Origin: an uncultured Clostridia bacterium
Lineage (GTDB): Bacteria; Bacillota; Clostridia; Oscillospirales; JAAYOS01
Direction: 5' to 3'
Length of the DNA: 64,000 nucleotides
NCBI GenBank assembly: GCA_947593925.1
Contig: CANQDU010000009.1
Coordinates: forward strand, 1 to 64,000
The position numbers and the translations under genes are program-made. The notes under the pieces are model-generated. The model ran no database searches. It saw only the letters and a program-made list of their open reading frames with translations, and was not told where the DNA came from. Shown here in pieces: positions 56,454 to 62,282 of this stretch. Positions within the stretch are counted from its first letter, which is position 1. Every line of letters starts with the position of its first letter.

Positions 56454-57893
56454 ATGAAAGTCCTGTTTATCACCTCCGAAGCCGCTCCGTTTGCAAAGAG
56501 CGGCGGACTCGGAGACGTCGCCGGTTCGCTTCCCGAAGCGCTGAACATGCCCGGCTGCTCCTGCCGCGTCGTCATGCCCCTCTACGGCTCGATCAAGGAG
56601 GAGTGGCGCAAGCAGATGACCTACGAGAAGAACTTCTACGTCACCCTCGGCTGGCGCAAGGTCTACTGCGGCATCTTCACGCTGAAGTACCGCAATACCG
56701 TCTTCTACTTCCTCGACAACGAGTACTACTTCAAGCGCGAGAGCCTCTACGGCCACTTTGACGACGGCGAGCGTTTCGCCTTCTTCAGCCGCGCCGCCGC
56801 CGAGCTTCTCTGGCAGATAGACTGGCGGCCGGATATCCTTCACTGCAACGACTGGCAGACCGCGCTCGTGCCGATATACCTCCACGACATGATGGGTATG
56901 GACGGCTCGCTCGCGGACATCAAGACGCTGTTCACCATCCACAACATCGAGTATCAGGGGCGCTACGGGCGCGAGCTCCTCACCGACCTCTTCGGTCTCA
57001 ACGAGGGCTGGTACACCTCCGGCAGGCTCGAGTATGACCACGACATTCTTCTGATGAAGGGCGCCATGCTCACCGCGGACGCTGTAAGCACCGTCTCGCC
57101 GACCTACGCCGAGGAGCTGCGCTATCCCTACTACGCCTACGGTCTCGACGGCGTCGTGAACGTCATACGCGACCGCTTCACCGGCATACTCAACGGCATC
57201 GACATGGAGTCCTACGACCCCGAGACCGACGCCGCCATAGCGAAGAACTACACCGCAAAGGATATCTCGGGCAAGGCCGTCTGCAAGGCGGAGCTTCAGC
57301 AGTCGCTCGGCCTCGCGGTCGAGCCGGACACGCCGATAGTCGCGTGTGTCGGACGTCTCGTCGCGCACAAGGGCATGGATCTCGTCCTCGCGCGGATGGA
57401 CGCCATCATGAGCCTCGGCGTGCAGTTTGTCATACTCGGAACGGGCGAGCAGGGCTACGAGCAGTTCTTCTCGAGTGCGGCGCAGCGCTACCCCGGCCGC
57501 ATCGCGAGCTGCATCACCTTCTCGGATAGCCTGGCGCGGCGGATATACTCCGGCGCGGACATTTTCCTCATGCCCTCGCAGAAGGAGCCGTGCGGCCTCA
57601 GCCAGATGATAGCCATGCGCTACGGCACCATCCCGGTCGTTCGTGAGACCGGCGGCCTCAAGGACACCGTCGAGCCGTACAACGAGTTCGAGGGCACCGG
57701 CGCGGGCTTCACGTTTGCAAACTACAACGCGGACGAGATGGTCCACGTCCTGTGGCTCGCGACCCAGCTCTACCGCGACAACCGCGCCGAGTGGGAGAAG
57801 ATGATGGTGCGCGACCTCGGCCGCGACTTCAGCTGGACGAAGAGCGCGCTTGAGTACCGCAAGCTCTACCGCGACATCACCGGCAAGCGCTGA
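56454..57893 (+). CDS. glgA: Glycogen synthase
   Basis: 479 residues of the GT5 family. It adds glucosyl units from ADP-glucose to alpha-1,4-glucan. The N terminus MKVLFITSEAAPFAKSGGLG carries the ADP-glucose-binding KSGGLGDV. DILHCNDWQTALVPIYLHDM and TIHNIEYQGRYGRELLTDLF are family motifs. The C-terminal GT-B half has FLMPSQKEPCGLSQMIAMRY with the conserved Glu, then GTIPVVRETGGLKDTV. AAGGAAAGGAGC precedes the ATG. It is the last gene of glgC-glgD-glgA. Its stop codon abuts an inverted-repeat element. Confidence 0.97.
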   Translation: MKVLFITSEAAPFAKSGGLGDVAGSLPEALNMPGCSCRVVMPLYGSIKEEWRKQMTYEKNFYVTLGWRKVYCGIFTLKYRNTVFYFLDNEYYFKRESLYGHFDDGERFAFFSRAAAELLWQIDWRPDILHCNDWQTALVPIYLHDMMGMDGSLADIKTLFTIHNIEYQGRYGRELLTDLFGLNEGWYTSGRLEYDHDILLMKGAMLTADAVSTVSPTYAEELRYPYYAYGLDGVVNVIRDRFTGILNGIDMESYDPETDAAIAKNYTAKDISGKAVCKAELQQSLGLAVEPDTPIVACVGRLVAHKGMDLVLARMDAIMSLGVQFVILGTGEQGYEQFFSSAAQRYPGRIASCITFSDSLARRIYSGADIFLMPSQKEPCGLSQMIAMRYGTIPVVRETGGLKDTVEPYNEFEGTGAGFTFANYNADEMVHVLWLATQLYRDNRAEWEKMMVRDLGRDFSWTKSALEYRKLYRDITGKR

Positions 57894-58095
57894 ACGTGCG
57901 GCAAAACGCAGCGAAGCTGTGGGTTTTGCGGGGGGTGCCCCGCACCCGTATAGCGGGGAAGCCCCGCGAGCATTCGCGGGGGGCGAGCCCGCGTCCCTAA
58001 GTGAGGCAGAGCCTCACCACCACCTTCGCGGGGCTGTGCCGTCCCGCACCCCTGCATTACTTTTTGCTCGCGCAAAAAGTAATCAAAAAGCGCGC

Positions 58096-58126
58096 TTAAG
58101 GGAGAGGGCTTTGCCCTCTCCCTTAA
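58096..58126. terminator. Hairpin at the left border of the core
   Basis: TTAAGGGAGAGGGC-TTT-GCCCTCTCCCTTAA followed by AAAATC. It could act as a terminator for glgA transcripts entering the element. Confidence 0.6.
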
Positions 58127-58447
58127 AAATCCCTCTCCCAATACAGACACAACACCATTACCCACATAACAGGACATACTCTGTATCCAACAAATCTATC
58201 ATCACACCGGGTGAGTTTCCGGGGAGACCATCAAACTTTCCCACTTCATTCGACGACATCAAACAGTTCCTGCGTAGTAGATACAAAAATCCGGTCCTAC
58301 GCTCACACCATAAGCGTAATGCAGAAGCTATCCCGAGAAAACGAAACTTTCGGTTCTAGTGGAAAGTTTGAGCGTGTACGCTTGTACTAAGCTACGTACT
58401 AATGTATGGCGTCGCAGAGCCTTTCCGATTAAGGAAAGAGGGGTCCA

Positions 58448-58480
58448 AAGGGGAGAAAACCGTTGGTTTTCTCCCCTTTG
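58448..58480. terminator. Hairpin at the right border of the core
   Basis: AAAGGGGAGAAAACC-GTT-GGTTTTCTCCCCTTT followed by GTGTGC. It could terminate transcripts from either side. Confidence 0.6.
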
Positions 58481-58769
58481 TGTGCTTTTTGGTTACTTTT
58501 TGCACAAGCAAAAAGTAACGCAGGGGTGCGGGGGCGCAATCCCCGCATGGCGCCGGTAGAGCTCCGCTCTACCAAGGACGCGGGGCTCGCCCCGCAGATT
58601 CCTGCGGGGCTTCCCCGCTAGGGGTGTGGGGGCACATGCCCCACATCTGCCGGTGAGGCTCAGCCTCACCTAGGGACGCGGGGCCCGCCCCCGCAAATGC
58701 TTGCGGGGTCTGCCCCGCTATATGGGTGCGGAGCAACACCCCCCGCCAAGCCCGCAGCTTTGCCGCGAC

Positions 58770-61058
58770 TTACTTTACGACTATCACCCGTACCTTGCCG
58801 TTTGCCGTGTACACGTCGAACTTGTCGCTCTGCGCGCGGGCGGCGCTCACCATCTGGGGCACGCTCCCGCCGAAGTCGCTCGGCGACATGAAGCTGCCGA
58901 CGCTCTCAATGAACACCTGCACGCCGGATGCTATCGGCACACGCTTTCCGTCTAGCTCGACCGCCGACGAGCCGGCGAAGCCGGCGCGGTCAATCGAATA
59001 CTTTTCCTCGAGAGGCTTCGCCTCCAGCATACGCTCGTCCGTCTTGCCGGCGGCGCTTGTGTAATTTCCCTTCAGAACGCCCGCCCAGATATAGTAGTTC
59101 TGCTCGCCCACGCTCTCGCGCAGTCCGGCGGGCATTTGAAGCGACGGACGCGCCGGAGCCTCGGTGCTGCCGTTGGCGTTGTCAAGCGTTATCTCCCGCT
59201 CGGTAGTCATGACCTCGGTGGTGCCGACAAATCCGACCGATACGGACTCCGTGCTGTAGCTCATCCTGCCGTACTCGTAGCGGTCGCCGGTCACGTCTCC
59301 GAAGATGACGAGGTTCGCGCTGCCGTCCGAATTGCGCCCAACGTGGACGATGTCCTTCGCCGCGACGGTGTCCGCCGTGATGTCCGAGCGGGATATGCGT
59401 ACCGGCAGGACTCCCGCCGCCGCGCGCTCGTACAGCGCGCAGTCGGGCGCGAGCGCTTCGCCGCCGAGGGTCATCTTCTCAAGGTCGAGATCCTTGCCCG
59501 GCGCGCTGTTCTTTACCGCGGACGCCTTCGGCTCGCCCTTGCCGTCTACCGAGACCTCAATGAGGTCGCCCGTCTCGATCTTTTCAAGCTTCATCGGGAT
59601 CTCCGGCCCGCCGACAAACTGCACCGAGCTGCCGGTGTACATTCCGATAGCGCGGCTCCCGTCGGGAGCCTTCGCCCCGGCGACGCGCCCGTCCGCCGCA
59701 AAGAGCAGACAGAGGCGGGCGTTCGGCTCGAACGCCGCGACGCTCTCCTTCGCGCAGGGCGCGAGGTCAAGCATCTCGCCATAGACTCGTATTCTGCTCG
59801 GCGCGGCGCTGTTCGGGACGGCGTAGGTGTATACCGCGTTCAGCCGAAAGTCGCTCACCACGACCGAGCCGCCCGGAACGTAGCTCAGTACGTCGTATTC
59901 CGAAAGCGCGGAGAACTCAGTCTCCGCGCCGTTCTTGTATATCCTGACACCGCTCGGCGCTCCGAGCGCCGCGAGGACCGCGCTCTGCGTGTCCCCCGGC
60001 TCGTATACCGCCACCGACGCCTCTCCGTACAGGGCGACGACGCTCGTCACCCTGCCCCGGCTGTCCGTCTCGAGCCGCAGTGTGTCGCCGTAGCTCAGAT
60101 CGTCGCGTATGGCGCCGAAGGTCGTGGCGCCGGCGTCCTCGCCGTCCTTATTCGCGTAGGCGGCAGTGTCCGCCGGGACCTTGTAAACCGTTCCGTCCAC
60201 CGCCGTGACCTCGTCGCCGGAGTAGTAGGCGAAGGTTATCGTCACCGAGCTGCCGCTCTCCTCGAGCGCCTCGGCGCGGAGTATCGTGCCGCCGTCCTTC
60301 GAGAGCGTCACCTTGTATCGCCTGCCGACGTCGTCCCGTGTGAGACCCGCGGCGTTCGCGAACGTCCCCGAGTAGCCGTACAGCGAGACGCCGTCCGCGC
60401 TAACGTCGGCTATGACGGCGGAGGCTATCGTCTCGCCGATGAGGCCGTCAATGAGGTGCGTGCCGTCCGTCTTGGCGGCAAAGAGGGCGTTGTAGAAGAT
60501 GCGCGCGCCGTCCGCCCTGGTCACCGGCTGTTTGGCGGAGAGAGTGACCCCTTCGCTGAGACCGCTCTGCGACGCTTTCGTGATATAGTCCGCGGGCCAG
60601 TTGAAGCCGACCGTCGCGTCGCTCCATCCGAGCGCGCGGAGGACTATCGTCACCGCCTCGCCGAAGTTTATGGTCGCGTTCGGACGGAAGTCGCCTTCGC
60701 TGTAGCCATTGACAAGCCCCAGTCCGCCGCTCTCCGTCTTCTTTGCGGCGTAGTTGATGTAGCCCGCCGCCCAGTGACCGCTCGTGACGTCGGTGAAAAT
60801 GGTGTAGCCCGAGTAGAGCTCCGCCGCGTCCCCGCCGCCGAGCATCATCACGACGAGCTTCGTAAACTCCGCGCGGGTGAGGGCTTTGTCCGGACGGAAG
60901 GTTCCGTCCGCATAGCCGTCTATTATGTCAAGCTGCTGCAAGAGCTCCAGCTTTGCCGAGAGCTCGCCGGACGGCACGTCTCCGAACGCCGACGCCGCCG
61001 GCACAAGTCCCGCGACGAGCGCCGCCGCGAGCAGGAGCGAAATCAACCTCTTTTTCAT
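58770..61058 (-). CDS. Secreted SLH protein, last gene of a MacAB-like operon
   Basis: 762 residues. It begins MKKRLISLLLAAALVAGLVP with a signal peptide cut near ASA. Three SLH modules follow (about 28-200): KLELLQQLDIIDGYADGTFR with PDKALTRAEFTKLVVMMLGG, then GLVNGYSEGDFRPNATINFG, then ITKASQSGLSEGVTLSAKQP. The remaining 560 residues are beta-rich repeats with no known domain, resembling in layout the SLH protein encoded at 15479-17773. It ends in VYTANGKVRVIVVK. Start at 61058: GGAGGAAAAGTG precedes the ATG. It starts 16 bases after the permease stop, so it belongs to that operon. Confidence 0.88.
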   Translation of the reverse strand: MKKRLISLLLAAALVAGLVPAASAFGDVPSGELSAKLELLQQLDIIDGYADGTFRPDKALTRAEFTKLVVMMLGGGDAAELYSGYTIFTDVTSGHWAAGYINYAAKKTESGGLGLVNGYSEGDFRPNATINFGEAVTIVLRALGWSDATVGFNWPADYITKASQSGLSEGVTLSAKQPVTRADGARIFYNALFAAKTDGTHLIDGLIGETIASAVIADVSADGVSLYGYSGTFANAAGLTRDDVGRRYKVTLSKDGGTILRAEALEESGSSVTITFAYYSGDEVTAVDGTVYKVPADTAAYANKDGEDAGATTFGAIRDDLSYGDTLRLETDSRGRVTSVVALYGEASVAVYEPGDTQSAVLAALGAPSGVRIYKNGAETEFSALSEYDVLSYVPGGSVVVSDFRLNAVYTYAVPNSAAPSRIRVYGEMLDLAPCAKESVAAFEPNARLCLLFAADGRVAGAKAPDGSRAIGMYTGSSVQFVGGPEIPMKLEKIETGDLIEVSVDGKGEPKASAVKNSAPGKDLDLEKMTLGGEALAPDCALYERAAAGVLPVRISRSDITADTVAAKDIVHVGRNSDGSANLVIFGDVTGDRYEYGRMSYSTESVSVGFVGTTEVMTTEREITLDNANGSTEAPARPSLQMPAGLRESVGEQNYYIWAGVLKGNYTSAAGKTDERMLEAKPLEEKYSIDRAGFAGSSAVELDGKRVPIASGVQVFIESVGSFMSPSDFGGSVPQMVSAARAQSDKFDVYTANGKVRVIVVK

Positions 61059-61074
61059 CACTTTTCCTCCCTCA

Positions 61075-62282
<1,208 letters not shown>

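Follow-up and report, generated by a model that had tools for sequence, protein, structure and literature searches.

Bacterial genomes commonly carry palindromic repeats, and the class that is understood best relies on TnpA-REP (Y1) transposases. The REPs are tied to TnpA-REP and to a GTAG tag (PMC8266576). Among other described systems, the BOX elements of Streptococcus pneumoniae are composite, modular interspersed repeats, with a variable number of modules and strong secondary structure; MITEs are AT-rich and come with target-site duplications; and SPRITE is a pneumococcal interspersed repeat resembling a Rho-independent terminator (PMC3049150). Another source describes the GC clusters of yeast mitochondria as mobile, GC-rich palindromic DNA (PMC4478555). 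The element considered here belongs to a previously unlisted repeat family, which is probably a new, genus-restricted, non-autonomous family of composite palindromic mobile elements that invert, undergo conversion and replace terminators, and whose ends would terminate the transcription of both flanking genes.

The copy under study lies in a window of 64,000 nucleotides, the whole stretch of DNA that was analyzed. As the preliminary description had it, it occupies 876 bp free of genes between two convergent stop codons, those of glgA (56454–57893, plus strand, stop included) and of an SLH-domain gene (58770–61082, minus strand, stop at 58770), both named from their predicted translations. The two mirrored arms, rich in GC, and the more AT-rich core between them were recovered in the inverted repeats I1, I2 and I5, which pair 57907–58105 with 58470–58767 at 83–86% complementarity, and in the GC content, about 71% in the arms versus 45–48% in the core (about 46% in its interior). 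The AT-richer stretch exists, but it measures about 360 bases and not the 320 first proposed, and both its edges carry outward-facing terminator-like hairpins. The extra unit of about 100 bases attributed to the right arm is the direct repeat D2, with a spacing of 98 bp. The predicted single-stranded DNA fold of these 876 bp has −279.8 kcal/mol, against −150.1 ± 5.8 for shuffled sequences (z −22.6). The window has two occurrences of the terminal palindrome TTACTTTTTGC-N4-GCAAAAAGTAA, one on each side of the core, against a chance expectation of none. The parts of the element are collected in Table 1; the modules of the left arm were found again in other copies.

Table 1. Parts of the element copy, with positions counted from the first letter of the window.
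Feature	Position	Strand	Description	Basis
Left GC-rich arm	57907–58055	+	Short-hairpin mosaic, e.g. GCGGGGAAGCCCCGC, GTGAGGCAGAGCCTCAC; repeats right arm in inverse orientation	I2–I5, GC
Left inner inverted repeat	58043–58105	+	Holds terminal palindrome 58056–58083 (TTACTTTTTGC TCGC GCAAAAAGTAA)	I1, I10
Left end hairpin	58095–58127	−	GGGAGAGGGC..GCCCTCTCCC; terminator-like on minus strand, tail CGCGCTTTTT	I8
Core interior	58140–58445	.	Non-coding, ~46% GC	
Conserved core block	58251–58325	.	..GACRACATCRAACRRTTCCTGCGTMGTAGA...TCCGGT..ACGCTC..CTATARGCGTAATGCAGA	Alignment of 55 copies
Right end hairpin	58446–58480	+	CAAAGGGGAGAAAACC..GGTTTTCTCCCCTTTG; terminator-like on plus strand, tail TGTGCTTTTT	I6
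Right inner inverted repeat	58470–58532	−	Holds terminal palindrome 58492–58519 (GTTACTTTTTGC ACAA GCAAAAAGTAAC)	I1, I11
Right GC-rich arm	58520–58767	−	Hairpin mosaic plus one extra ~98-bp unit	D2 at 58567–58593 and 58665–58691; I2–I5

The window's own genome (G000, 1.87 Mb) was compared with four others of the genus (G001–G004). Near-full copies number about 14 there and partial ones at least 7, at 82–93% identity, plus copies at contig ends; at least 8 of its contig ends fall within element copies (C1, C3, C8, both ends of C10, C11, C12 and C18), so that these copy numbers are underestimates. Three of the other four genus genomes have comparable copy numbers, which makes roughly at least 20 sites in each of four related gut bacteria. 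The core is present in these four of the five genus genomes, at about 82–92% identity in G000, G002 and G004 and about 75% in G003, and was found neither in G001 nor in five genomes from four other genera of the family. The absence of the element elsewhere, named at the outset, together with a core free of covariation, as an outcome that would leave only a terminator cluster, is contradicted by the copies in its own genome and in three more of the genus. Considering all ten genomes compared, the terminal palindrome was counted 34 times in G000, 39 in G002, 42 in G003 and 46 in G004, and not once in the remaining six. The listed palindrome sites of G000 all fall on known copies of the element, and no other cargo or larger autonomous parent with the same palindromes was seen among them. 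A search for the exact core pattern in 84,980 species genomes, a set that possibly left out the records of the window's own genome, gave only three matches, namely the three other carriers of the genus, which are MAGs of uncultured Clostridia (Lapin-004, Lapin-008 and Lapin-022) and by their names come from rabbit samples; the same pattern gave no match in the viral contigs of IMG/VR. Over these searches, the element is apparently restricted to one genus of gut Clostridia.

The alignment of the core from 55 copies defined a cassette of about 490 bp with the order: palindrome, hairpin GGGAGAGGGC, non-coding interior with a conserved block of about 75 nt, hairpin CAAAGGGGAGAAAACC, palindrome. 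No coding signal was detected in the core of any copy by a gene call based on codon usage. Beyond the cassette, the arms are arrays of short palindromic modules, inversely arranged, whose length and make-up vary among copies, even at one and the same site; in G003, tandem units of about 102 bp can be recognised from the module spacing. An alternative arm unit of about 100 nt, CTCGAACCTTTTCCGCATAGATACATTC...GCATTGTCCGCTTCGCGGACAATGC, was seen on either side of the core (L013, L016, L062, L065, L072, L078, L082, L118 and L220), and the palindrome that accompanies it usually has one extra base (TTACATTTTTGC), a combination which suggests arm exchange at the palindrome. Other variants were also observed. 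In a subfamily of about ten copies in G003 (L092, L094–L098 and L197 among them), the conserved block is joined to a left half of the core that is shorter and of another kind. A divergent element, L232 (G004:C27:4000-4700), has kept the right end of the core alone; its interior is of another kind, and it has a long perfect hairpin (CACAAGTATAAGCGGGGGAAGTTTG..). A second composite palindromic family, CATTTTCGGCGGCGGCGTGTACGTCGCCGAAAATA (or CCCGACGTACACGCCGTCGGG) with GAGTTTCGCCGC..GCGGCGAAATAAA, occupies the same type of intergenic site and is unrelated to this core (L194 at G003:C43:10700-11800, the left flank of L119, L221 and L229).

Comparison of the genome sequences shows presence and absence of the element at the same site, strictly intergenic placement, both orientations of the cassette, homogenisation within genomes and frequent occupation of the place of the native terminator. 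The copies lie only between genes: the 63 sites with both neighbours called comprise 32 convergent, 24 co-directional and 7 divergent pairs. The genes flanking many copies are orthologous in the four genomes, mostly 88–97% identical, and for 13 occupied sites there are element-free orthologous counterparts, which lack arms and core; two copies located upstream of divergent genes (L002 and L008) are among those with element-free orthologous sites. Some element-free sites keep small hairpin remnants, and there could be losses among them. In all 13 occupied/element-free pairs, inspected by eye, no clean target-site duplication of fixed length was seen. So, with its high copy number, element-free orthologous sites, purely intergenic placement and confinement to one genus, the non-autonomous mobile element of the preliminary description is supported, and of the two features proposed as marks of a MITE-like element the many copies were found and the flanking duplications were not.

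The core is flipped between species at no fewer than seven sites with both flanks matched (L006/L104, L010/L062, L013/L108, L017/L099, L020/L076, L067/L086 and L072/L112). The cores of two species at the same site are no closer to each other than random pairs (percentiles 0.05 to 1.00), and core identity is higher within a genome (87–91%) than between genomes (79–86%). It follows that the turnover of cassettes, by replacement, conversion or re-insertion, outpaces the divergence of the species, and the cores evolve in concert inside a genome. Two loci, one with arms and no core (L245) and one with a solo palindrome and no core (L220), show partial loss. It was also observed that the gene order of the species breaks at element copies (L064/L074 of G004 versus L241–L244 of G000 and G002; L091 and L096 of G003; L077/L113), as if copies had recombined, or as if the MAGs were misassembled at the repeats. 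The comparison genomes are all MAGs or draft assemblies in which many contigs end at the repeat, and for this reason some of the differences in orientation or linkage could be assembly errors.

Concerning termination, an intrinsic terminator was called by scanning at 8 of the 13 element-free sites (L001, L004, L011, L012, L068, L075, L095 and L105), a count taken with no control loci; the element-free site of L082 has a long hairpin devoid of a T-run, which the scan did not call. The occupied sites lack the terminator sequences of their element-free relatives. In the case of L068, one terminator is common to three species and is gone only in the occupied one. At the glgA site, the native terminator is still there in the occupied G002 and G004 and is gone in G000, which means that its loss can follow insertion. 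The element thus often stands, by sequence comparison, where its relatives keep a native terminator, an association that is no proof of causation. As to the element itself, TTTTT follows each end hairpin, on opposite strands and facing outward. The number of terminator-like sites, two, is not significant by itself against 1.2 ± 1.3 in shuffles of the region, and the end hairpins are imperfect terminators because the T-runs are 4–5 nt away from the stems. Where it stands, the element probably also serves as a bidirectional terminator.

The enzymes that might move the element were searched for among Y1 transposases, reverse transcriptases, IS110 transposases and tyrosine recombinases. Y1 transposases (TnpA-REP/RAYT, IS200; PF01797) were found in none of the five genus genomes, while control genomes gave matches, and reverse transcriptases (PF00078) were equally found in none of the five. 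A retroelement (group II intron, retron), needing a reverse transcriptase in trans, was discarded on this account. The IS110 DEDD transposase (PF01548) gave nothing over the cut-off in the five genomes, with matches below it only in G001, and an IS110 or bridge-RNA origin was also rejected. Tyrosine recombinases are present, and in G002 and G004 one group of them is multicopy. These multicopy genes (L210–L218) encode proteins of about 310 aa, and several of these loci have nearby a pair of 22–26-bp inverted repeats, about 265 bp apart, like an invertible promoter. Neither a target-site duplication nor a transposase with matching ends was found, which weakens the case for insertion.

The presence of both orientations at one site, together with the multicopy recombinases of G002 and G004, could indicate that a tyrosine recombinase flips the core, which would then be a dedicated invertible switch. 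This seems highly improbable: the recombinase loci of G002 and G004 and their own inverted repeats bear no similarity to the element, in G000 only one recombinase like that group was seen and in G003 none that clearly resembles it, yet G003 flips too, no promoter-like site was found in the core, and homologous recombination between the arms suffices for inversion. Quite unlikely, too, is that the core encodes a family of long structured non-coding RNA, with the arms as flanking terminators, the long RNA being the other possibility raised in the preliminary description. On the plus strand, the interior of the copy in the window is more stably folded than its shuffles (z −2.8), and the 75-nt block is strongly conserved over copies 75–90% identical. 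However, RNAalifold gave only a mild folding excess of the interior over column shuffles (z −2.9 for the plus strand, −1.3 for the minus strand), the fold z-scores of 27 single copies were inconsistent (mean −1.9 plus, −1.2 minus), covariation in the interior showed no excess over column shuffles (z −0.5 plus, 0.2 minus), nothing like a promoter was detected, Rfam at a permissive E-value gave only chance-level matches, mostly to microRNA families, and the unit is absent at many orthologous sites. The compensatory changes expected in the core stems turned out to be confined to the terminal palindromes and one end hairpin. In the left palindrome, paired substitutions (AT/GC and TA/CG/AT, some mismatched intermediates also occurring) preserve the pairing, in the right palindrome of the G003 copies a TA pair is replaced by CG, and two pairs of the right end hairpin show compensatory changes (AU/GC and AU/UA); the stem of the left end hairpin is essentially invariant over the 55 copies. 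Such changes would equally arise in DNA palindromes. Outside the terminal palindromes, fold and covariation are not clearly above the controls, and the structured-RNA core is not supported.

That the element is a classical MITE, mobilised by a DDE transposase from a resident IS, agrees with its long inverted ends, high copy number, intergenic location and want of an ORF, and is nevertheless rather unlikely, as the element-free sites reveal no target duplication, arm length and composition differ among copies and the palindromes listed for G000 belong to known copies, no larger element with the same ends having been seen among them. At the opposite extreme, the hairpin mosaics of the arms and the 32 of 63 copies between convergent genes would fit ordinary decaying clusters of terminators or REPs, immobile and shaped by local duplication and gene conversion; one non-coding core of 490 bp at dozens of unrelated sites, and orthologous sites cleanly free of the element, some of them in front of divergent genes, make this very hard to sustain. 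Somewhat more room, still at a low probability, can be given to a dedicated terminator-replacing mobile element, in which a machinery other than Y1 or reverse transcriptase would recognise hairpins (native terminators and the element's own palindromes, as DNA or RNA), swap the resident terminator for the element with no target duplication and exchange or flip the cassette at the palindromes.

If the preferred interpretation of a non-autonomous mobile family is right, the element would spread by means of an enzyme supplied in trans, or through recombination or repair at DNA hairpins, while recombination between the inverted arms and between copies might account for inversion, arm swaps and conversion. 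The outward hairpin/T-run ends would terminate the transcription of both flanking genes, and this would render the native terminator dispensable. No Y1 transposase, reverse transcriptase or IS110 transposase was found in the genomes in which this high-copy palindromic family spreads, inverts and is homogenised, so that the way such repeats move without these enzymes can be put to the test. The findings also point to repeats being able to assume a regulatory role, that of the transcription terminator, at many genes. Such a takeover would explain the tolerance of the element between tightly packed convergent genes, and the occupied and element-free orthologous sites are a natural experiment on it.

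Compared to the known systems, the element resembles BIMEs, BOX and MITEs, and it lacks one feature that defines REP/BIME (TnpA-REP) and one that defines MITEs (target-site duplication). Like REP/BIME, it forms mosaics of short GC-rich palindromes between genes, in many cases close to gene ends, with modules in the 20–50 nt range of that class; it differs in its large common core of about 490 bp and in the lack of a Y1/RAYT (TnpA-REP) gene in the five genus genomes. By description, it is composite and modular like BOX, with module numbers that vary and a strong secondary structure, although BOX is directional, boxA-(boxB)n-boxC, and the element is a core between mirrored hairpin arrays. It is non-autonomous and non-coding, has terminal inverted repeats and no ORF, and reaches a high copy number like MITEs, but its arms have about 71% GC, its length is variable and no duplication was seen. 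The GC clusters of yeast, mitochondrial and much shorter than the element, offer an analogy only. Finally, it is, like SPRITE, an interspersed repeat resembling a terminator, but a far larger composite one, which occupies the places of its relatives' native terminators.
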